From Saccharomycodes ludwigii (taxonomy: Eukaryota; Ascomycota; Saccharomycetes; Saccharomycodales; Saccharomycodaceae), in NCBI RefSeq assembly GCF_020623625.1, contig NC_060200.1, positions 2,123,501-2,187,500 of the forward strand: 64,000 nt of DNA. Reading direction: 5' to 3'. Positions 3,313 through 49,797 of this stretch are shown piece after piece. Positions within the stretch are counted from its first letter, which is position 1. Each line of letters starts with the position of its first letter. Position numbers and translations under genes: made by a program. Under the pieces are notes generated by a model. That model ran no database searches. It had not been told where the DNA came from and saw only the letters and a program-made list of their open reading frames with translations.

Positions 3313-3677
3313 TTCTATATGGCTATTTTTAGCTAATATTTATTGTACCTACTGGTTAATTGTTAAGATGTGTTTGATTGCTTATCTACATTTATTTTAT
3401 TTAAAGGTTTGATTGAAAAATCTAGCGTTTCCCTCTTTATCTGAATGAAACAATCAAGCAATTAAATCCTTGCAATGTAATATGGGTAATTAATTCAGTT
3501 CACACTGAAAGGGGATATTATTACTGCTACTACTATTATTGACATTGTGATTAACGGCAAAATAAAATTTATAAGTATATAACATTCATAAGAAAAGAAA
3601 AAAAAAAAAAAAAAAAAAAAAGAAAAAAAAAAGAAAAGTTCAAAATTCAAACAAACCGTAACGGCTTATATTTTTTT

Positions 3678-3708
<31 letters not shown>

Positions 3709-3957
3709 CACGTACAGAAATAGCCCTAATTTATATAAACATTTGGCGTATGGTTAAAGAAAAGTAATGTGTGATGTCGTCCGTTACACACAATTACCAA
3801 TAAGCAGAATCATGACCGAAAAAAAAAAAAAAAGAAAAAAAAAAAATTGATAATTACATAATAAATAATCACAATAATAGTAATACGACAATAACAAATA
3901 CCTTATTATCATCACTATATTGTATCAATAACTTCATTATCAATGATACTATAGCGC

Positions 3958-3997
<40 letters not shown>

Positions 3998-4182
3998 GTC
4001 TAGAAACTAATTATTTACATGGGACTGGACAGCAGAGACAGACAAGTTCATCAATAACATAATATATATATGTATAGGTAATACTTCAAAGAGGCAGCAA
4101 GCGAAAAATAAGCTTTTTTTTTTTTAAAAAAAAAAAAAAAAATAGATATGATAAAAGGAATAGATACACCTAAGATCACCTA
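3313..4182. other. Intergenic region, RRN11 promoter / HSP60 3' flank
   Basis: No gene seen. It holds several A tracts of 12-20 bases (around 3600-3625, 3685-3708, 3820-3846, 4130-4141) and a TA dinucleotide run near 3965-3996. The left end is the RRN11 promoter, the right end the HSP60 3' untranslated region. Confidence 0.8.
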
Positions 4183-5901
4183 TCACATCATACCGCCCAT
4201 ACCTGGCATACCACCCATGCCTGGCATACCGGCAGCAGGTTTAGCAGGTTCTGGTGCGTCGACAATAGCAACCTCAGTGGTAGCCAACAAAGAAGCAACA
4301 CCGGAAGCATCGACTAGACCAGTTCTAACAACCTTGAATGGATCAATAATACCAGCTTCCAACATATCAACATATTCACCCTTAGCAGCATTGTAACCCT
4401 TACTAAAATCATTACCAAACTCATCGACAAGCTTGCCAACAATAACAGAACCCTCTTCGCCAGCATTTTCAATAATCTTCTTTGCTGGTCTAGTAATGGC
4501 CTTTCTAATAATATCAACACCCAACTTCTGGTCAAAGTTTTCAGTTACAACATCGTCTAAAACTCTAGCAGCCTTTACCAAAGCGGTACCACCACCTGGC
4601 AAGATACCTTCCTCAACGGCAGCTCTAGTAGCGTTCAAGGCATCATCATAACGATCCTTCTTTTCACCGACTTCCACCTCACTAGAACCACCAACTCTAA
4701 CAACGGCTACACCACCACTTAACTTAGCCAAACGCTCTTGCAACTTTTCTTTTTCATACGAGTTGCTAGTGGTTAAGTCAATAGAACCTCTGATTTGTTC
4801 AATTCTGTTTTGAATGGCTTCTTTTGGACCAGCACCGTTTAAGATAACGGTATCTTCTTTAGTTACAGTGATAGCATTGCAAGAACCTAACAGTTCCAAA
4901 TTAACATTCTCCAACTTCAAATCTAGTTCTTCAGTAAAAACAGTACCGCCAGTCAAAACAGCAATGTCGCCTAAAGTGTTCTTTCTATTATCACCAAAGC
5001 CTGGAGCCTTAATGGCACAAACTTTAACTTGACCTCTTAGCTTGTTCAAAATACAAGCAGCCAAAGCTTCACCATCAATATCTTCAGCAATGATGACCAA
5101 TGGTCTTCTGGTTTGATTGGAGATCTCTAAGGAGGGGATTATATCTTGAATAGAGGAAATCTTCTTTTCGCTCAACAATATTAATGGCTTTTCAAACTCG
5201 ACTTTGGCATGCTTAGTATCGGTAATGAAATATGGAGAAATATAACCACGATCAAATCTCATACCCTCAGTAATTTCCAACTCATCTTCCATAGTCTTAC
5301 CCTCCTTAATGGTAATGACACCTTCCTTACCAACCTTTTCCATGGCGCTGGCCAATAGCTTACCAACATGAGCATCACCGTTAGCAGAAATAGTGGCAAC
5401 TTGCGCAATTTCGGCGGAGGTAGTGATTTCCTTCTTCTTGGAACTCAAAAATTCAATAACTTTTTCAACAGCAGCCTGGGTGCCCTTTCTCAAATCCATT
5501 GGATTGCAACCGGCAGCTACATTCTTAACGGATTCGGTGAAAATAGCCTTACCCAAAACGGTAGCAGAAGTAGTACCATCACCAGCGGCCTCATTAGTTT
5601 TCCCAGCAACCTCTTGTAATAATTTGGCGCCCATGTTTTCAAATTTGTCTTGCAAAGTAATAGACTTAGCTACAGTTACACCATCTTTGGTGATCTTTGG
5701 AGCACCAAATGGTTGTTCAATTAGTACGTTACGACCTTTTGGTCCCAATGTTGCAGAGACTGCATCCGCTAAAGTTTCGACACCCTTCAATAGAGCAGCT
5801 CTCCCTTCAATGCCGAATTTCAACTCCTTATGAGAGTAAAAACGACGAGCAAGGATTCTTGTTGTGGCTTGTTGATTACGGATGATTGTTCTTCTTAACA
5901 T
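4183..5901 (-). CDS. HSP60: Mitochondrial chaperonin Hsp60
   Basis: A 572-residue group I chaperonin, the same size as yeast Hsp60. The first 20 or so residues ([20 protein letters not shown]) are rich in Arg and free of acidic residues, a mitochondrial targeting peptide. ATP-site motifs follow ([26 protein letters not shown]), the GroEL signature [12 protein letters not shown] lies near residue 430, and the tail [16 protein letters not shown] is typical. It folds imported matrix proteins as a double heptameric ring with Hsp10 and is essential. Codon use is noticeably more biased than in the neighbours, as expected for an abundant protein. It is divergent from the sphingoid kinase gene, as HSP60 (YLR259C) is from LCB5 (YLR260W) in S. 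cerevisiae. Confidence 0.98.
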
Positions 5902-16163: not shown

Positions 16164-18920
16164 ATGAATGGAATAAATAGCCAAAGCGGCATGCCAGATA
16201 AAATTATCTATTTGCTAAACAAAGGTGCTCCATTAAATAACAATGCTTTGAGAGAATTCAAAATATATATTGCTACTGGTAAAAATCTTTTAGATTCAAC
16301 CTTTATTGACAATCTAATTGAGTGTTTCAAAACTTTGGATATTAAAAACAAATCTAAATTAACTGATTGTTGCGAATTTCTACATATTTTATTTGAACAT
16401 TTGCTTAATTTCTCCGATAGTGGAAGGTACAACGATTTTCCTTCTACTGTGACTGATACTACCAATAAAATTAACGAAACATATTTATCTAAAATTTTGG
16501 ACAATTTGTTACAATGCAATCATATTAATAAAATCAACTTTAACAAAAACTTTATTGATTTCATCTTAGACAATTTAGGGAGAAATTGGAGATTTTCTGC
16601 TCTTTTAGTAAAAATTTATAAAGAAGCTTCCAATTCAAAAATATTAATTTCTTCATCGATCAAATCGCCATCCAAATCTTTAAAACTAGGAAAGTTAATT
16701 AGCACTTTAGATAACTTTCAAACTGCTAATTTTATTGTTGAATTAATCTCAAACATTTTCCCCCGTAGATCACTATCAAAAACAGGTGTTTTAATGAAAC
16801 CAGTTTTCTGGGAACATGAATCTGTCAATGTAAACACAACAGACCCCAATGAAATGTTTTTTAACAGTGAACTATATCCACAAAGGACATTACATGGTTC
16901 ACGCCAGTGCATTACTTTTATTTTAAATGTATTTAACGTTGAGAATTTTACCCATTTATACGAATTTGAAAACATTTCGTATTTAACAAAAAATACGACC
17001 ACTTCGAAAAGGGCTAAAAAGTTTTGTAAAAAAAATGGCTATGTTCAAGTAATTAACCAATATATTTATATTTGGGACTGCGAATCCATCTTTATTAGAA
17101 TTAGCATTGATGGTACTAAAATATATAAAGATTTACAAAATAATTTGAAAATTGAATTGGCTAGAGATTTCAATGAAATTGTTTGGTCAACACATGTCTT
17201 GGCATTACAAAATTTAAAAAATGCAAGCTGTTTCATACTAACAGCTACTAATACTGGTTCTGTTACTGGAATTTTAAAAGCTATAAAGACAAAGAAAATT
17301 AGTGAATCTATTGCTGCCATTTTTTTAAATAATACTGAGTTTGACAATGATGAAAATGACCAAATAGGTATTGAACCCTCCGATGATATTGAACAAGAAA
17401 AAGAGAATGTCACTGCAGGGGAAATGGCACAAATACACAGTGTCATTTCTAATGGTAACATGAACAAAAACGTTGTTGAGCACAAAGCTAATGATGACAA
17501 TACCATCATTGAGAGTAAACAGCAGTTATCTACTCCAAAAACTTCATTAATAAAAGATAGTACTTTAAAATTCACAAATATGAAAAATCGTAAAAATACC
17601 ATTAAGAAAATGGATAGGGACCCAAGTTTTGTTGAAAATTTAAATTCAAGCTTAAAAGTTGGAAAAGAACCCGTCACTGATGATGAGAATAATAATAATA
17701 ACGATAACAATAACAACAAAGAAAATGATAATAAAAATCATAGGAATAACAATATCAGCGATCAAGATTCTCCACTAACGAAGAAAAACAAATTGCATTC
17801 AACTAAAGATAAATTTGAATTGGGCCTAGACTATTCTCTACCTCTGATCGACTCCAATCCACTTAAAGTTTCTAATAGAGATCCATCATTAATTATGACT
17901 GGCATTAATAAAGCACCAGTTTATACCAAAAAGAGACCATCACAACAAATGTCATTAAAACAATTAAATGGTATTAGAATTAAGACCAATGAAAAAAGAA
18001 AAAAGTCACACAATGCCCTATCGTCAAATTATCACAAGATTACAAAGAAAACTTTAAAAAAGGACTTGCTAAAGCATAAAGATTTATTCAAAAATAGCAT
18101 AGTTAGAAGCACCACCAGCAGCCCCATAATAAGTAAAGATAACAAAGGTACTGGCGTAAAAAGAGAACTCGCGTTGAGCAAACCACAAGGCTTAGCCCCT
18201 GCTGAACTGATGACAGAAACTTTTGAGAAAGCGATGGATAACAAGGGAAGTGATACCAAAAACAACTGTGATCATAAATCTATTTTAAGCGAGAACATTA
18301 TTGCTAATAACAAAGACAGTAAGAAACCAAACAATAGAAATGTGGTTATCGACGTGGGTAGTTCCAGTGAAAATATAAGCTTACACAATGATGACGATAC
18401 TACTGATAATAATGATGCAGACAAACTACACAAAAAGGCCATTGATCCTGATAATAAAATAACGAAAACAGAGAGCGATAAGTATAATAACATGAACGAA
18501 ACAACTTTATTACCAAGCAATACGTCAATGTCTCGATCTGTTATGCTGAATGATATAGAGAAAGACAATTTTTTTGTGGATAATACGAGTATTATTTCAC
18601 CCACTATAACTGAGCAATTACAATACCAAATATACAATTCCATTAAAGGATTCTCTATTGAGTTAACAAATAAAATGAATATTATCAACGAAGAACTAAA
18701 TAAGAGGATCACCAAAGAATTCTCTAATAAGTACATTAACTTATTCCACCAATTGCAAGAAAATTTTGCAAGCGATGTAAAAGGGATGATTGATTTTATC
18801 AATGAGATTCAAGGTATGTTGCATCTTCCCGAAAAACAGTTGCTAGAGTGCATTAATCAAAAACAATTTGTTACTAAGAATACTGTAGGCGACAGTACGA
18901 TTGATAAAAAGGATGGTTAA
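16164..18920 (+). CDS. RED1: Meiotic chromosome axis protein Red1
   Basis: A 918-residue protein. The N-terminal 380 or so residues are hydrophobic-patterned, consistent with the ARM-like and PH-like domains of Red1/SYCP2 (YIWDCESIFIRISIDG, RDFNEIVWSTHVLAL). A long disordered, Asn/Lys/Ser-rich middle follows. The last 110 residues are a predicted coiled coil (LQYQIYNSIKGFSIELTNKM, FSNKYINLFHQLQENF, IQGMLHLPEKQL), which in Red1 drives oligomerisation. Red1 builds the axial element with Hop1 and Rec8 and promotes interhomolog recombination and synapsis. Sequence alone supports this moderately. The position next to RPS28, with YPT6 and TMA7 close by, matches YLR262C to YLR264W and makes the call firm. 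A URS1-like site upstream fits meiotic control. S. cerevisiae Red1 is 827 residues. Confidence 0.85.
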   Translation: MNGINSQSGMPDKIIYLLNKGAPLNNNALREFKIYIATGKNLLDSTFIDNLIECFKTLDIKNKSKLTDCCEFLHILFEHLLNFSDSGRYNDFPSTVTDTTNKINETYLSKILDNLLQCNHINKINFNKNFIDFILDNLGRNWRFSALLVKIYKEASNSKILISSSIKSPSKSLKLGKLISTLDNFQTANFIVELISNIFPRRSLSKTGVLMKPVFWEHESVNVNTTDPNEMFFNSELYPQRTLHGSRQCITFILNVFNVENFTHLYEFENISYLTKNTTTSKRAKKFCKKNGYVQVINQYIYIWDCESIFIRISIDGTKIYKDLQNNLKIELARDFNEIVWSTHVLALQNLKNASCFILTATNTGSVTGILKAIKTKKISESIAAIFLNNTEFDNDENDQIGIEPSDDIEQEKENVTAGEMAQIHSVISNGNMNKNVVEHKANDDNTIIESKQQLSTPKTSLIKDSTLKFTNMKNRKNTIKKMDRDPSFVENLNSSLKVGKEPVTDDENNNNNDNNNNKENDNKNHRNNNISDQDSPLTKKNKLHSTKDKFELGLDYSLPLIDSNPLKVSNRDPSLIMTGINKAPVYTKKRPSQQMSLKQLNGIRIKTNEKRKKSHNALSSNYHKITKKTLKKDLLKHKDLFKNSIVRSTTSSPIISKDNKGTGVKRELALSKPQGLAPAELMTETFEKAMDNKGSDTKNNCDHKSILSENIIANNKDSKKPNNRNVVIDVGSSSENISLHNDDDTTDNNDADKLHKKAIDPDNKITKTESDKYNNMNETTLLPSNTSMSRSVMLNDIEKDNFFVDNTSIISPTITEQLQYQIYNSIKGFSIELTNKMNIINEELNKRITKEFSNKYINLFHQLQENFASDVKGMIDFINEIQGMLHLPEKQLLECINQKQFVTKNTVGDSTIDKKDG

Positions 18921-42071: not shown

Positions 42072-45000
42072 CTAAAACAAAAAAACAAAAACGATAATAA
42101 TACCGTAAAAGTATAGGCTTGCATTGTTCTTGTTAGCATCAGCTTGAAAGCTGGAAAGTGAGAAGGTACTATACTGGTTTAAAACAGAAGCCGTGGCTGA
42201 GGAATGTTGTGCGTCAACACTTGATATTCCTATCTTAAAAGCACTCGTATTAGTAGCAGCATCTTGGGTAGTTGACCTGACATTACTAATTGTAATAATA
42301 GTAGTATCAGATGAAATACCAGTAACAAAACCTCCTTCTGTACCCGTGTATTCCGTAACCCTGGTGCTAAGACTAGCGCTTCTAACACTAATAAAAAATG
42401 TATTAGTTACGGTTGAAATTTCAGGAACAAAAACCATTGAAGTGTTTTGTATTTTAGTACAGTCACCACCACAAAAAGTAGAATATTTATTTGCTTCGGT
42501 AGAAACCGTAAGATCATCAGAACCAACAGAAGGATAAATATTCATAGTAGAGCAGGTACTTTTACTGATAACATTATCGATAGTAGTAGTGTTATTATCT
42601 GTGTCCAACGTGTTTAATGTTGAAAAATTAACAGGATATGTATTTGAGATAACAGTAGAATCTGTTGTATCAATGAAAACATTTGATAATGTAGATGGCA
42701 AAAAAGTAACTGTATTGGCATTTGATATACTAGAAGATGTGCGAGTACCGAATGTAGCGGTCATAGTGGGAATTATTGAAATGGAACTAGTATATAAAGT
42801 AGTATCAGAGGATGTAGCAAATTCAGGAGATGACAAGGAAACAAGTGAAGTGATAGTAGAAGAAGAAAAATACATAATAGATGAAACAACATCGGATAAT
42901 TTAAAAGATAATGTGCTTGATAAAATATTAGTGGTACTGTTAAAATAACCAAAAACCGGTGTTTCCACATAGATTATGGTTGACGTGGTAGGAACCCCGT
43001 CTGTGCCAGTTGTTGTATATGCACTTGTAGAGTACGTACTAGTGTATGTACCAGTCCATGGCCCAGTAGTTGTTGTAGTTCCACTAGCTTCTGGCGTTTC
43101 CACATAGATTATGGTTGAAGTGGTAGGAACCCCGTCTGTGCCAGTTGTTGTATACACACTTGTAGAGTACGTACTAGTGTATGTACCAGTCCATGGCCCA
43201 GTAGTTGTTGTAGTTCCACTAGCTTCTGGCGTTTCCACATAGATTATGGTTGACGTGGTAGGAACCCCATCTGTGCCAGTTGTTGTATATGCACTTGTAG
43301 AGTACGTACTGGTGTATGTACCAGTCCATGGCCCAGTAGTTGTTGTAGTTCTACTAGCTTCTGGTGTTTCCACATAGATTATGGTTGACGTGGTAGGAAC
43401 CCCGTCTGTGCCGGTATTTGTGAATATACTTGTAGAATACGTACTAGTGTATGTACCAGTCCATGGTCCAGTAGTTGTTTTAGTTCCACTAGCTTCTGGC
43501 GTTTCCACATAGATTATGGTTGACGTGGTAGGAACCCCGTCTGTGCCAGTTGTTGTATACACACTTGTAGAGTACGTACTAGTGTATGTACCAGTCCATG
43601 GTCCAGTAGTTGTTGTAGTTCCACTAGCTTCTGGCGTTTCCACATAGATTATGGTTGACGTGGTAGGAACCCCATCTGTGCCAGTTGTTGTATATACACT
43701 TGTAGAGTACGTACTAGTGTATGTACCAGTCCATGGTCCAGTAGTTGTTGTAGTTCCATTAGCTTCTGGCGTTTCCACATAGATTATGGTTGACGTGGTA
43801 GGAACCCCGTCTGTACCGGTATTAGTGAATATACTTGTAGAATACGTACTAGTGTATGTACCAGTCCATGGCCCAGTAGTTGTTGTAGTTCCACTAGCTT
43901 CTGGCGTTTCCACATAGATTATGGTTGAAGTGGTAGGAACCCCGTCTGTGCCAGTTGTTGTATATACACTTGTAGAGTACGTACTAGTGTATGTACCAGT
44001 CCATGGCCCAGTAGTTGTTGTAGTTCTACTAGCTTCTGGTGTTTCCACATAGATTATGGTTGACGTGGTAGGAACCCCGTCTGTGCCGGTATTTGTGAAT
44101 ATACTTGTAGAATACGTACTAGTGTATGTACCAGTCCATGATCCAGTAGTTGTTGTAGTTCCACTAGCTTCTGGCGTTTCCACATAGATTATGGTTGACG
44201 TGGTAGGAACCCCATCTGTGCCAGTTGTTGTATATGCACTTGTAGAGTACGTACTGGTGTATGTACCAGTCCATGGCCCAGTAGTTGTTGTAGTTCCACT
44301 AGCTTCTGGCGTTTCCACATAGATTATGGTTGAAGTGGTAGGAACCCCGTCTGTGCCAGTTGTTGTATACACACTTGTAGAGTACGTACTAGTGTATGTA
44401 CCAGTCCATGGCCCAGTAGTTGTTGTAGTTCTACTAGCTTCTGGCGTTTCCACATAGATTATGGTTGACGTGGTAGGAACCCCGTCTGTGCCGGTATTAG
44501 TGAATATACTTGTAGAATACGTACTAGTGTATGTACCAGTCCATGGTCCAGTAGTTGTTGTAGTTCCACTAGCTTCTGGCGTTTCCACATAGATTATGGT
44601 TGACGTGGTAGGAACCCCATCTGTGCCAGTTGTTGTATATACACTTGTAGAGTACGTACTAGTGTATGTACCAGTCCATGGCCCAGTAGTTGTTGTAGTT
44701 CCACTAGCTTCTGGCGTTTCCACATAGATTATGGTTGACGTGGTAGGAACCCCGTCTGTGCCGGTATTAGTGAATATACTTGTAGAATACGTACTAGTGT
44801 ATGTACCAGTCCATGGCCCAGTAGTTGTTGTAGTTCCACTAGCTTCTGGCGTTTCCACATAGATTATGGTTGACGTGGTAGGAACCCCATCTGTGCCAGT
44901 TGTTGTATATACACTTGTAGAGTACGTACTAGTGTATGTACCAGTCCATGGCCCAGTAGTTGTTGTAGTTCCACTAGCTTCTGGCGTTTCCACATAGATT

Positions 45001-48000
45001 ATGGTTGACGTGGTAGGAACCCCGTCTGTGCCGGTATTAGTGAATATACTTGTAGAATACGTACTAGTGTATGTACCAGTCCATGGCCCAGTAGTTGTTG
45101 TAGTTCTACTAGCTTCTGGCGTTTCCACATAGATTATGGTTGAAGTGGTAGGAACCCCATCTGTGCCAGTTGTTGTATATACACTTGTAGAGTACGTACT
45201 AGTGTATGTACCAGTCCATGGTCCAGTAGTTGTTGTAGTTCCATTAGCTTCTGGCGTTTCCACATAGATTATGGTTGAAGTGGTAGGAACCCCATCTGTG
45301 CCAGTTGTTGTATATGCACTTGTAGAGTACGTACTGGTGTATGTACCAGTCCATGGCCCAGTAGTTGTTGTAGTTCTACTAGCTTCTGGCGTTTCCACAT
45401 AGATTATGGTTGAAGTGGTAGGAACCCCATCTGTGCCAGTTGTTGTATATGCACTTGTAGAGTACGTACTGGTGTATGTACCAGTCCATGGCCCAGTAGT
45501 TGTTGTAGTTCTACTAGCTTCTGGCGTTTCCACATAGATTATGGTTGACGTGGTAGGAACCCCATCTGTGCCAGTTGTTGTATATGCACTTGTAGAGTAC
45601 GTACTGGTGTATGTACCAGTCCATGGCCCAGTAGTTGTTGTAGTTCTACTAGCTTCTGGCGTTTCCACATAGATTATGGTTGAAGTGGTAGGAACCCCAT
45701 CTGTGCCAGTTGTTGTATACACACTTGTAGAGTACGTACTAGTGTATGTACCAGTCCATGGCCCAGTAGTTGTTGTAGTTCTACTAGCTTCTGGCGTTTC
45801 CACATAGATTATGGTTGACGTGGTAGGAACCCCGTCTGTGCCGGTATTAGTGAATATACTTGTAGAATACGTACTAGTGTATGTACCAGTCCATGGTCCA
45901 GTAGTTGTTGTAGTTCCACTAGCTTCTGGCGTTTCCACATAGATTATGGTTGACGTGGTAGGAACCCCATCTGTGCCAGTTGTTGTATATACACTTGTAG
46001 AGTACGTACTAGTGTATGTACCAGTCCATGGCCCAGTAGTTGTTGTAGTTCCACTAGCTTCTGGCGTTTCCACATAGATTATGGTTGAAGTGGTAGGAAC
46101 CCCGTCTGTGCCAGTTGTTGTATACACACTTGTAGAGTACGTACTAGTGTATGTACCAGTCCATGGCCCAGTAGTTGTTGTAGTTCCACTAGCTTCTGGC
46201 GTTTCCACATAGATTATGGTTGACGTGGTAGGAACCCCATCTGTGCCAGTTGTTGTATATACACTTGTAGAGTACGTACTAGTGTATGTACCAGTCCATG
46301 ATCCAGTAGTTGTTGTAGTTTCACTAGCTTCTGGCGTTTCCACATAGATTATGGTTGAAGTGGTAGGAACCCCATCTGTGCCAGTTGTTGTATATGCACT
46401 TGTAGAGTACGTACTAGTGTATGTACCAGTCCATGGCCCAGTAGTTGTTGTAGTTCTACTAGCTTCTGGTGTTTCCACATAGATTATGGTTGACGTGGTA
46501 GGAACCCCGTCTGTGCCGGTATTAGTGAATATACTTGTAGAATACGTACTAGTGTATGTACCAGTCCATGGCCCAGTAGTTGTTGTAGTTCCACTAGCTT
46601 CTGGCGTTTCCACATAGATTATGGTTGACGTGGTAGGAACCCCGTCTGTGCCAGTTGTTGTATACACACTTGTAGAGTACGTACTAGTGTATGTACCAGT
46701 CCATGGTCCAGTAGTTGTTGTAGTTCCACTAGCTTCTGGCGTTTCCACATAGATTATGGTTGAAGTGGTAGGAACCCCGTCTGTGCCAGTTGTTGTATAC
46801 ACACTTGTAGAGTACGTACTAGTGTATGTACCAGTCCATGGCCCAGTAGTTGTTGTAGTTCCACTAGCTTCTGGCGTTTCCACATAGATTATGGTTGACG
46901 TGGTAGGAACCCCATCTGTACCGGTACTAGTCCAAACATTGGTAGCATAAGTAGTGGTATAGGAAAGGGAACCAGGTGTGGTTATAGTTGTAGTTAATTC
47001 CGCAGTCTTTGTAATAATCGAGGCAGACCCAGTATTTAAATCCTGGGTGATAAGAATAATCTGATCAGTAGCTGTGTTGATGATGTATTGAGTGCTAGCA
47101 ATGGTATCTGTGCAAGTGTACAAAATAGAATATCTATTATGAATGGTGTTATTTTCGTTTGGCAATTTTTGTAAATTGTTGGCCCAAATACGAACACCAT
47201 TATCCAATGGTCCAACAGTAATCTCTATAATATTATTGCCACAATCATAATCAACCTCAAGGTAGTCAATGGGAAATAACCAATCATTAAAATTACTAGT
47301 CAAGCCAACCTGGGAATTATCACAATCGATACCATTATTTTCGTTGTTGATATCATACGTTAAAATTTCAGTGCCACCCAAAATGTAACCGTTTCGACAT
47401 GCATGGCCCAAAGTATACGATTCTAAAGTGCCATAGGTGGTAGTACGAGCAAAATAATACATTTCGTTATTTTCACCTAAAGAATCAAAGGTAATATTGG
47501 CGGATAATTCATCACCAAATAGAACATTCTGAGGAGTATCTGCTTGAAAAAAATTGGCGTTTTGCAGTTCATATTTGTAATAGGAATCTCCATTGCTAAA
47601 AATTAAAGAAACAGAAATACTACCAGTAACCATATTGGCGGAGGTAAATGAGTTGTACGATTCGCAAGCTAAAATAGTGTCTTCATATAGATAAGCTGCT
47701 TGCTGATAGGCATAACAGCGGAAGGCATTAGTTCCGTCAGACAATCTAACGTCAAATGAACCTTCATCATCACCAATCTTTAACCTGTAAATGTGCGGCA
47801 TTGACACTGTGAAGTAGTCGCCAATATCAATGGGGATACCAGCATCAATAGCAAAATTAAAGGTTGCAGTCCAGCTTTCTTCTGGATATTTGGCTCCTTG
47901 GGGGGAAAAACTTAAATCTGAAAAGGTAATTGCCAGAATTTCAGATGTTGCATTAGTGCAGGTTATTAATAAAACAAATAGTAAGTGTAAAAACATATTA

Positions 48001-48029
48001 AAAAAAAGTCCCTTTTTTTTTCGATACAT
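42072..48029 (-). CDS. SAG1: Giant GPI-type cell-wall adhesin: alpha-agglutinin (Sag1)-like head on a flocculin-type repeat stalk
   Basis: 1985 residues. A signal peptide ends near residue 28 (FLHLLFVLLITCTNA; Met12 is an alternative start). Residues 30-350 resemble S. cerevisiae alpha-agglutinin: ITFSDLSFSPQ, WTATFNFAID, FTVSMPHIYRLKI, CYAYQQAAYLYED, NGYILGGTE, FNDWLFP and YTCTDTIASTQY all have counterparts, and six cysteines fall at matching places. Residues about 363-1691 are roughly 30 copies of a 45-residue Thr/Ser-rich unit (GPWTGTYTSTYSTS, GTDGVPTTSTIIYVETP), the size and pattern of the Flo1 flocculin repeat. The C-terminal 290 residues are Ser/Thr-rich with CGGDC and end in a hydrophobic GPI signal (LYFYGIIIVFVFLF). 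Alpha-agglutinin binds a-agglutinin during mating; S. cerevisiae Sag1 has only 650 residues and no such array. The role of this protein is inferred. Confidence 0.85.
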   Translation of the reverse strand: MYRKKKGLFFNMFLHLLFVLLITCTNATSEILAITFSDLSFSPQGAKYPEESWTATFNFAIDAGIPIDIGDYFTVSMPHIYRLKIGDDEGSFDVRLSDGTNAFRCYAYQQAAYLYEDTILACESYNSFTSANMVTGSISVSLIFSNGDSYYKYELQNANFFQADTPQNVLFGDELSANITFDSLGENNEMYYFARTTTYGTLESYTLGHACRNGYILGGTEILTYDINNENNGIDCDNSQVGLTSNFNDWLFPIDYLEVDYDCGNNIIEITVGPLDNGVRIWANNLQKLPNENNTIHNRYSILYTCTDTIASTQYIINTATDQIILITQDLNTGSASIITKTAELTTTITTPGSLSYTTTYATNVWTSTGTDGVPTTSTIIYVETPEASGTTTTTGPWTGTYTSTYSTSVYTTTGTDGVPTTSTIIYVETPEASGTTTTTGPWTGTYTSTYSTSVYTTTGTDGVPTTSTIIYVETPEASGTTTTTGPWTGTYTSTYSTSIFTNTGTDGVPTTSTIIYVETPEASRTTTTTGPWTGTYTSTYSTSAYTTTGTDGVPTTSTIIYVETPEASETTTTTGSWTGTYTSTYSTSVYTTTGTDGVPTTSTIIYVETPEASGTTTTTGPWTGTYTSTYSTSVYTTTGTDGVPTTSTIIYVETPEASGTTTTTGPWTGTYTSTYSTSVYTTTGTDGVPTTSTIIYVETPEASGTTTTTGPWTGTYTSTYSTSIFTNTGTDGVPTTSTIIYVETPEASRTTTTTGPWTGTYTSTYSTSVYTTTGTDGVPTTSTIIYVETPEASRTTTTTGPWTGTYTSTYSTSAYTTTGTDGVPTTSTIIYVETPEASRTTTTTGPWTGTYTSTYSTSAYTTTGTDGVPTTSTIIYVETPEASRTTTTTGPWTGTYTSTYSTSAYTTTGTDGVPTTSTIIYVETPEANGTTTTTGPWTGTYTSTYSTSVYTTTGTDGVPTTSTIIYVETPEASRTTTTTGPWTGTYTSTYSTSIFTNTGTDGVPTTSTIIYVETPEASGTTTTTGPWTGTYTSTYSTSVYTTTGTDGVPTTSTIIYVETPEASGTTTTTGPWTGTYTSTYSTSIFTNTGTDGVPTTSTIIYVETPEASGTTTTTGPWTGTYTSTYSTSVYTTTGTDGVPTTSTIIYVETPEASGTTTTTGPWTGTYTSTYSTSIFTNTGTDGVPTTSTIIYVETPEASRTTTTTGPWTGTYTSTYSTSVYTTTGTDGVPTTSTIIYVETPEASGTTTTTGPWTGTYTSTYSTSAYTTTGTDGVPTTSTIIYVETPEASGTTTTTGSWTGTYTSTYSTSIFTNTGTDGVPTTSTIIYVETPEASRTTTTTGPWTGTYTSTYSTSVYTTTGTDGVPTTSTIIYVETPEASGTTTTTGPWTGTYTSTYSTSIFTNTGTDGVPTTSTIIYVETPEANGTTTTTGPWTGTYTSTYSTSVYTTTGTDGVPTTSTIIYVETPEASGTTTTTGPWTGTYTSTYSTSVYTTTGTDGVPTTSTIIYVETPEASGTKTTTGPWTGTYTSTYSTSIFTNTGTDGVPTTSTIIYVETPEASRTTTTTGPWTGTYTSTYSTSAYTTTGTDGVPTTSTIIYVETPEASGTTTTTGPWTGTYTSTYSTSVYTTTGTDGVPTTSTIIYVETPEASGTTTTTGPWTGTYTSTYSTSAYTTTGTDGVPTTSTIIYVETPVFGYFNSTTNILSSTLSFKLSDVVSSIMYFSSSTITSLVSLSSPEFATSSDTTLYTSSISIIPTMTATFGTRTSSSISNANTVTFLPSTLSNVFIDTTDSTVISNTYPVNFSTLNTLDTDNNTTTIDNVISKSTCSTMNIYPSVGSDDLTVSTEANKYSTFCGGDCTKIQNTSMVFVPEISTVTNTFFISVRSASLSTRVTEYTGTEGGFVTGISSDTTIITISNVRSTTQDAATNTSAFKIGISSVDAQHSSATASVLNQYSTFSLSSFQADANKNNASLYFYGIIIVFVFLF
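42955..46940 (-). repeat. 135-bp tandem repeat array in the adhesin (about 30 units)
   Basis: The motif GTTTCCACATAGATTATGG recurs 30 times, from 42961 to 46876, at exact 135-base spacing (29 x 135 = 3915) with no indels. Units differ by a few substitutions, many synonymous (ACG/ACT Thr; GAC/GAT Asp). Eight units carry the SIFTNT variant instead of SVYTTT or SAYTTT; their starts are 405, 270, 405, 270, 270, 810 and 675 bases apart, all multiples of the unit. The unit nearest the head is divergent (SLSYTTTYATNVWTSTG). Confidence 0.97.
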
Positions 48030-48720
48030 TTGTAATCCCTTTGTTAGTTATATTTTTAGTTAAGCGGAATAAAAATGAGTATGTTTTTGATGTTAGGATT
48101 TATGATACTACTGATAACAATGAAAATGGAATAATGGAACAGTAAGACAGAAATAAAAATTGTAAAGTCAAAAATATAAATATATAAAAACAACTATATG
48201 TTTATATATATATATATATTTTTTTTTTCCTACCCTCTCTATCTCTTAATTGTCTTTGGCTTTCCGATTATCATCCAGTAGTTTTGGGTAAAACAGGCTG
48301 CATTCCAAAATGTTTTAATGTAAATAGTAACATGATTAATTTTAAACTGTTCTTTTACGAATACAAACATTCCATTATTAACTTCTTCGTAAACCAACTC
48401 TTTCAATTCAATTTAAATTTAGGGAAATGATTCACGTACAATGTTAATAACAACAGTACACAAAATATAATCACAAACTATCCGCAATAAAAGTTACATT
48501 GTTTATACTTGTTGTTTGGTATTACCAGGTGCCATATTTTCCCCAAAAATATTGTAAACAAATCGAATATAATTTTATCATTGTTAGGGAACACCTAAAA
48601 CTATTGTAGATTTTTTGTTATTTTTATTTTCCATTGGTGTCTCGATTTGGAAACTGGAGGATGGGAGCGGGAAGAGTGGTCAAGGATTATGTAGGTAGAC
48701 ATAATCATTTCTTGACCTCA

Positions 48721-48776
<56 letters not shown>

Positions 48777-49797
48777 ATTGGCAAGTATCTCAAACAATGC
48801 ATAGGCGAGAGCAGACATTAATGATAGCTGGATTGAAGAATGCAAACCTACCAAATCTAGGGTTACTACTTTACTGAAAAAATACTTAATTCACAAGATA
48901 AAATAATCAACCCCAAAAAAAAAAAAAAAAAAAAAAAAAAATTAAAAAATAAAATAAAATACCATAAAGGGGATATTTTAAACTTAATAAACATGTAAAG
49001 TTGAATTTAATAGAACTGTGTTCAAAAATATAATAAAAACAATCAGATAAGTACCAAAAAAGGTTCTGCAAATATCAAAAGTGTTTATTCACTAAAATCT
49101 CATGATTTTAATTCAGAGTTGGTTAAATAATAGCATCTTCTATAACAATAGATCAACACATAAAAAGGCAAATAGCACATAGATTTAAATTTAAATTTCC
49201 ACCTAAATATATATGTATCGACCACAAAATGTAAAAACACTTTGTTACGAAATACTAGCTTCTTAAAATCAAAGTTTAAAAAAATGAATGATACATATAT
49301 TAGCCATCAGCCTGTTCCCATATTGACTCTTCTGTTTATCCTCATCATGCTTCCTATGTGCTATTTAGTATTTTTTTTTTTTTTTTTTTTTTTCCTTTTC
49401 TTTCTCCCTTGTTTTATTCATTTTGGTACAGTATTAAAGTCTTTTAGATCTCTACTATTAGACTCATTATTTATTTTGTTGTCGTTATTATTATTTGTAT
49501 TTAGTTAAGCTTTAAAAGTAAAAGTAAAAGTAAAAGTGAAAATAAAAGTGAAAATAAAATCCTGAAAAATCATAGTTGAACATATATATTAACATAGCTT
49601 TGCGTTACTTTTGATTAATTTGTGTGCGCTCCCTCAAAAAAATACAAAACTTCGCCAGATTGCTGTCAATTAATTAATTAATTTTTTTTTTTTTCTTTTT
49701 TTCCCCCCCTTACATAAAAATACAAATATACAACTGATTATACAATTATATGGGCACGCCAATGTCGAACTAAAAAAAAAGGAAAAAAAAAAAAAAA
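48030..49797. other. Long intergenic region: adhesin promoter / TOP1 3' flank
   Basis: 1.77 kb without a convincing gene. It contains a TA run near 48200-48218, an uninterrupted 52-base A tract (48723-48774), a second A tract near 48916-48940 and T tracts at 49371-49393. A hydrophobic 74-codon ORF from the ATG at 49284 is probably chance. No clear Mcm1/alpha1 composite site or TGAAACA pheromone element was recognised. Confidence 0.7.
48723..48774 (+). repeat. Poly(A) tract of 52 bases
   Basis: The longest uninterrupted homopolymer in the window, 0.7 kb upstream of the adhesin ATG. Exact length is vulnerable to sequencing error. Confidence 0.9.

Follow-up and report, generated by a model that had tools for sequence, protein, structure and literature searches.

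A flocculin-stalked protein with an Als/Sag1-type head in Saccharomycodes ludwigii, a candidate alpha-agglutinin

The window analyzed here is a stretch of 64,000 nucleotides from the yeast Saccharomycodes ludwigii (NCBI RefSeq assembly GCF_020623625.1, contig NC_060200.1, positions 2,123,501 to 2,187,500 of the forward strand); coordinates given without a contig name are positions in this window. Its minus strand contained one uninterrupted frame of 1985 residues that joins an adhesive head of the Als/Sag1 type (NT-Als domain) to a stalk of 30 flocculin repeats, and the gene is probably the alpha-agglutinin of S. ludwigii, a Flo-stalked functional counterpart of Saccharomyces cerevisiae Sag1 that would bind Aga2 from a long stalk. 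The architecture is of a known, putative kind; judged from its sequence, the gene appears to be a new and well-supported example, the first in Saccharomycodaceae relative to a published census. The coordinates and repeat counts that an earlier note had given for the gene were correct, as was its placement of head and repeats in one gene; a division into two separate genes (head and stalk) was ruled out by the single open frame. The gene, its parts and its upstream region are as follows.

42072..48029, minus strand: the whole gene, an ALS/Sag1-type head and a flocculin-repeat stalk, 1985 residues, a single open frame from ATG to stop.
47949..48029, minus strand: residues 1-27, hydrophobic N-terminus, a putative secretion signal (translation inspected by eye).
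46980..47948, minus strand: residues 28-350, the NT-Als adhesive head (phmmer matches to Als3 and Als9 in the PDB; the sole such match found in the genome).
47112..47855, minus strand: residues 59-306, the match to PF11766 (E 2.5e-57).
47784..47786, minus strand: Arg82, in the alignment column of the invariant Als residue Lys59 (alignment with 4le8 and 4lee).
42957..46943, minus strand: residues 363-1691, the stalk, 30 flocculin cores at an exact 45-residue spacing (Pfam, Tandem Repeats Finder and composition).
42075..42956, minus strand: residues 1692-1985, a Ser/Thr-rich tail; the array closes with YVETPVFGYFN.
42075..42128, minus strand: the last 18 residues, hydrophobic and resembling a glycosylphosphatidylinositol (GPI) anchor signal (translation inspected by eye).
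48030..49797, minus strand: the upstream region as far as the topoisomerase I gene.

The head belonged to the Als/Sag1-type family in a Pfam search, in which Candida_ALS_N (PF11766) matched residues 59-306 with 194 bits against a cut-off of 25, and neither PA14 nor GLEYA was found in the protein at E up to 1. When the head was compared with the PDB by phmmer, the best matches were Als3 (4le8, E 1.1e-12, and its mutant chain 4lee, 1.2e-12), followed by four Als9/Als sequences (5.8e-9 to 8e-9); three of the nine sequences listed were unrelated molecules with E 0.06 or worse, and the whole protein as query gave no match at E up to 1. The head thus shares its family with Candida albicans Als3 and Als9 (PDB 4le8, 2y7l and others) over approximately 260 residues. 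Als3 has eight Cys and a Lys, whereas the S. ludwigii head has six Cys and an Arg. These six Cys of the mature head (at 105, 122, 211, 236, 263, and 306) all have counterparts in Als3, which contains eight Cys over the aligned region; the two Als3 Cys that lack a partner are those of PCVFK and SKCF. The column of the invariant Lys was recognized in the alignment because it holds K in 4le8 and M in 4lee; in the S. ludwigii head it holds Arg82. Sag1 has likewise been described as having six Cys, three of the four Als disulfides, and an Arg at the Lys position (PMC8712946, PMC4791367). Measured against these published descriptions of Sag1, rather than against an alignment with its sequence, the head appears to match Sag1 in each published mark, including the Cys set, the absent disulfide pair, and the Arg, which agrees with the earlier claim of an agglutinin-family head with six matching cysteines. 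Under the definition of the ALS family by its NT-Als domain in PMC8712946, the predicted protein is, by sequence, a member of this family. A model of the head alone was computed with AlphaFold2 with no alignment supplied, and its fold was not used, the mean predicted local distance difference test score (pLDDT) being 35.1.

In the stalk, Flocculin (PF00624) matched in 30 stretches with E 2.1e-298, and the GTDGVPTTSTIIYVETP core occurred 30 times between residue 370 (first) and residue 1675 (last), with every spacing exactly 45 residues, as expected from the earlier description of about 30 units of a 45-residue Flo1-type repeat. At the DNA level, Tandem Repeats Finder reported a 135-bp unit in 29.3 copies (42961-46919, 94% matches). 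The stalk consisted of 39% Thr and 11% Ser and contained no Cys, and the tail of 294 residues contained 19% Ser and 17% Thr, ended in a hydrophobic stretch, and matched no Pfam family at E up to 1. Sag1 is only about one third as long as the S. ludwigii protein. The published description of Sag1 does not include a tandem-repeat domain (PMC8712946), in line with the earlier statement that Sag1 has no such array, whereas the S. ludwigii gene has 30 repeats; it is therefore not a typical Sag1 by that description, although it may work like one. The Als repeats of C. albicans are also different, with a reported unit of 36 residues (PMC8712946) in contrast to the 45-residue flocculin repeats found here.

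The fusion of the two parts is not a new architecture. Putative ALS/FLO recombinants were published in 2021 (Oh et al., PMC8712946) in two Saccharomycetaceae, namely Lachancea thermotolerans, in which KLTH0C00440p has NT-Als on more than 30 Flo1 repeats, and Torulaspora delbrueckii, in which TDEL_0G04810 has NT-Als on five Flo1 repeat copies. As these proteins are described there, they share with the S. ludwigii protein the NT-Als head on a 45-residue Flo1 repeat; they are considered putative and their verification is called for, whereas the S. ludwigii gene is the sole NT-Als gene found in its genome and is located in the interior of a chromosome. The census in the same source gives no ALS loci in 21 Saccharomycodaceae. 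The gene supports, in what appears to be a chromosome-level assembly from long reads, a kind of fusion previously noted as putative; the Saccharomycodaceae, without an ALS gene in the 21-species census, now have one, and S. ludwigii gains a candidate alpha-agglutinin. Flocculins have been reported in S. ludwigii UTAD17 (PMC7903802), in a paper whose main text contains neither "agglutinin" nor "mating"; the main text of PMC8567612 does not contain "agglutin". No paper on Saccharomycodes and agglutinin-like proteins or sexual agglutination was found in a search of main texts that covered few papers from subscription journals.

The genome of S. ludwigii itself (12.5 Mb in 8 contigs, seven of chromosome size and one of 26 kb) was searched for mating genes and other members of both families. 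A PF11766 profile search and a search with the head sequence each gave a single match, at this gene. AGA2 was represented by one match (C2:560979-561146; PF17366, E 6.9e-14 with hmmscan), as were STE2 and STE3, and MATalpha1 by one match that covers part of the profile, on the fifth-longest contig. An open frame of 155 residues contained three W-Q-W-L-[TS]-F-Q-W-G-E-P-M-Y repeats (C1:2444010-2444186) separated by KR and acidic-Ala spacers and was read as the alpha-factor precursor; its MF_alpha matches fall below the Pfam cut-off, and eight residues of the repeat did not occur in the literature searched. The union of PF11766 and PF00624 in one frame and the presence of AGA2, MATalpha1, STE2, STE3, and the alpha-factor-like frame were counted for the alpha-agglutinin reading. 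Since the gene has the sole NT-Als head found and the genome encodes Aga2, it is the best candidate for Sag1, with which it shares the marks published for Sag1, namely six Cys, the loss of one of the four disulfides, and an Arg in place of Lys59, alongside an AGA2 gene in the genome.

Flocculin repeats were found in at least 20 loci, including this gene; 150 of the 662 candidate PF00624 matches were scored, so that this is a lower bound, and the matches were grouped into loci by us. Among the listed loci, the NT-Als head occurred in this gene only. PA14 was matched in a frame of the same length in 15 of the 19 other listed loci and in a neighboring frame in three (compared by eye), and the sole one without a PA14 match was a broken locus at the end of C7. 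This gene contained none of the 23 PA14 matches in the genome, and this difference from 18 of the 19 other listed loci was also counted for the alpha-agglutinin reading. The locus at C4:744k was the sole one of these 18 that was scanned individually, and hmmscan named GLEYA there without listing PA14, so that the PA14 matches do not decide which lectin type is involved. The flocculins of the genome, like Flo1-type flocculins in general, share the PF00624 stalk with this gene, as well as the FGYFN boundary in the six genes sampled; they differ in their lectin-type (PA14/GLEYA) heads, compared with the NT-Als head here, and in repeat units of at most 74% DNA identity. Position also sets the gene apart, with 18 of the 19 other listed loci within approximately 70 kb of a contig end and this gene interior to its contig (C1, 2.17 of 3.08 Mb), 0.9 Mb from the nearer end.

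In S. cerevisiae, alpha-agglutinin is linked to the wall of MATalpha cells, is homologous to Als proteins, and recognizes the small subunit of a-agglutinin by its C-terminal part (PMC8835621). On alpha cells, the S. ludwigii protein would be secreted and GPI-anchored and become cross-linked to the glucan of the wall. Its Thr-rich, presumably O-glycosylated stalk would keep the head level with the outer wall or farther out, where a Sag1-like peptide-binding head could be presented to Aga2 on a cells. Neighboring molecules may be clustered by the repeated STIIYVE stretches, which would add avidity. Clustering by repeats has been proposed for Flo1 and Als proteins. S. ludwigii is reported to mate preferentially inside its own tetrad (PMC8567612), and a long-reach mating adhesin in such a yeast would be a useful test of the purpose of agglutinin length.

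Several observations weigh against an alpha-agglutinin. In the alignment, Ile143 of the head sits at the position of Als3 Ala116, and the peptide groove may therefore differ from that of Als3; A116V is one of the Als3 cavity mutations (K59M, A116V, and Y301F) and part of the triple change that abolishes peptide binding (PMC4791367). A long stalk is dispensable, as published Sag1-like proteins without repeats show. The L. thermotolerans chimera is among the flocculation genes that are lowered on contact with S. cerevisiae (PMC11302351), a response that suggests a vegetative role for that chimera. The gene is not placed beside MPP10, which was located on a different contig beside NOC2-like and AVT1-like genes, and no NT-Als gene was present in the 9 kb read around it. 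In S. cerevisiae, SAG1 lies beside MPP10, and the comparison of neighborhoods covered this side of SAG1. Aga2 of this genome ends in TSTIIVG, which presumably differs from the C-terminus of the S. cerevisiae protein.

The promoters add to these points. Eight patterns were scanned, namely TGAAACA, CAATGAC, ATGACAG, and five Mcm1-like forms, which we take to be the relevant site words, and none of them occurred within 1000 bases upstream of this gene. In the same scan the MFalpha promoter had two TGAAACA and one CAATGAC, the STE3 promoter had one loose CCNAATNNGG match and no TGAAACA or CAATGAC, the STE2 promoter had CC(A/T)6GG sites, and the AGA2 and MATalpha1 promoters had none of the eight patterns. 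Of the two alpha genes, MFalpha thus contains sites absent from this gene, and STE3 is without them as well. The best block common to this promoter, STE3, and MFalpha in a de novo search scored 52.9; of 60 control triplets, 5 did as well or better, and substituting STE2 and AGA2 for STE3 and MFalpha yielded 52.2. Approximately 11% of the 190 control pairs equaled the best match of this promoter to MFalpha, and its match to the a-specific STE2 was higher. Mating-type regulation of this gene is unsupported by the promoter scans; of the "mating-specific adhesin" proposed in the earlier note, the agglutinin-type head is supported; the mating specificity is conjectural, as are the projection of the head beyond the wall and the coupling of sexual with non-sexual aggregation.

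It is possible, although we consider it the less probable account, that the protein is a general vegetative adhesin, in which a broad peptide-binding NT-Als head on a flocculin stalk functions in cell-cell or surface adhesion and not specifically in mating. The Flo-type stalk and the lack of a mating-type regulatory site in the promoter scans are consistent with such a role, and KLTH0C00440g of L. thermotolerans appears in a list of flocculation genes responsive to S. cerevisiae contact (PMC11302351). T. delbrueckii, moreover, is described as having a distinct Sag1-like gene in addition to its ALS/FLO chimera (PMC8712946), and the chimera therefore need not be the agglutinin in that yeast. On the other hand, the S. 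ludwigii head has the Sag1-like set of six Cys and Arg and not the Als3-like set of eight Cys and Lys, it is the sole family member found in a genome that retains AGA2, and the gene is chromosome-interior, unlike nearly all other listed flocculin loci.

It is very improbable that the stalk was recently captured from one of the genome's own flocculin genes, with units still being exchanged. Unit length and motifs are the same as in the flocculins, the protein units of the stalk are up to 76% identical to flocculin units, and the array-end boundary YVETP-x-FGYFN also closes the arrays of all six flocculin genes sampled, which indicates that the terminal part of a flocculin array was also included in the fusion. 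These six were drawn from the 19 other loci (L005, L014, L015/L024, L025, L041, and L044; four of them from 3-kb pieces). At identical residues, codon identity between the stalk and the six sampled arrays was 0.35-0.42, compared with 0.44 expected by chance from pooled codon usage and 0.92 within this array, in which 28 aligned units had an average DNA identity of 95%. In a FastTree analysis of 85 distinct units, the 20 from the stalk formed one clade (support 0.984) against the 65 others, whereas none of the six sampled arrays was monophyletic. Rooting on a unit from C8 forces non-monophyly on the C8 array; after re-rooting on a unit of this gene, all six were still non-monophyletic. Silent-site identity at the chance level, together with the single clade, indicates that the stalk parted from the flocculins sampled so long ago that silent sites have become saturated, and a recent graft was rejected on these grounds. 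Compared with those sampled arrays the stalk is old, with its protein motif retained and the array homogenized within itself. Accordingly, the "acquired flocculation-style stalk" of the earlier note is a flocculin stalk, and relative to the sampled flocculins it is not a recent one.

A misjoin of an ALS/SAG1 gene to a flocculin array during assembly is the least credible account, even though Oh et al. state that ALS/FLO recombinants in databases need checking (PMC8712946) and this genome is rich in flocculin arrays, because a genome-wide DNA search with two array units (at least 74 matches) found the unit only here, with at least 13 matches of 89-100% identity at its own locus and at least 61 elsewhere of at most 74%, because the frame is uninterrupted, with flanking non-repeat sequence at either side, and because, if this is the NBRC 1722 assembly, it was built from approximately 200x PacBio data with a mean read of 13 kb (PMC8567612), longer than the 4-kb array. 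The exact number of repeat copies could still be off. The NBRC 1722 PacBio assembly is described as 12.5 Mb in 7 chromosomes with a guanine-cytosine (GC) content of 30.9%, a single MATalpha on chrE, and its only gap placed in the ribosomal DNA (PMC8567612).

Beyond the alpha-agglutinin reading, a broader and rather doubtful proposal is that the alpha-agglutinin of this lineage has been Flo-stalked for a long time; that the ALS/FLO fusions of Saccharomycodaceae, Lachancea, and Torulaspora would derive from one old fusion, with the repeat-less Sag1 of S. cerevisiae as a reduced, derived form; that beta-prone stalk segments would cluster the agglutinin; and that mating adhesion and flocculation would share stalk machinery.

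Other flocculin loci showed features of their own. On the minus strand of C6 (C6:18400-35709), near the contig end, a flocculin-repeat frame extended over 6577 residues (approximately 19.7 kb), and PA14 was matched for it at C6:35902. Flocculins whose heads were almost identical in sequence, as judged by eye, occurred at the right end of C7 (C7:787000-792461) and on the 26-kb contig C8 (C8:15000-24999), split into several broken frames in C7 and open in C8; this could reflect the sequence quality at the end of the contig or a real pseudogene. No Rfam family was found in one 10-kb stretch of C8 or in four end pieces of C2 and C8. An interior flocculin-like locus (C5:1059074-1062824), outside the 150 scored PF00624 matches, had a PA14 match followed by repeat DNA matches at 68%. 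The MPP10-like protein (C6:585500-594500, 3378-5213) contained an unusually long uninterrupted run of Glu. Within the window, where GC content was 29-39% in 8-kb blocks, an uninterrupted run of 52 A (T on the gene strand) was located at 48723-48774, approximately 0.7 kb upstream of the gene. The window also contained a Red1 gene in an open frame (16164-18920, plus strand; PF07964, E 6e-59), which is of interest because S. ludwigii is reported to have almost no meiotic crossing over (PMC8567612).

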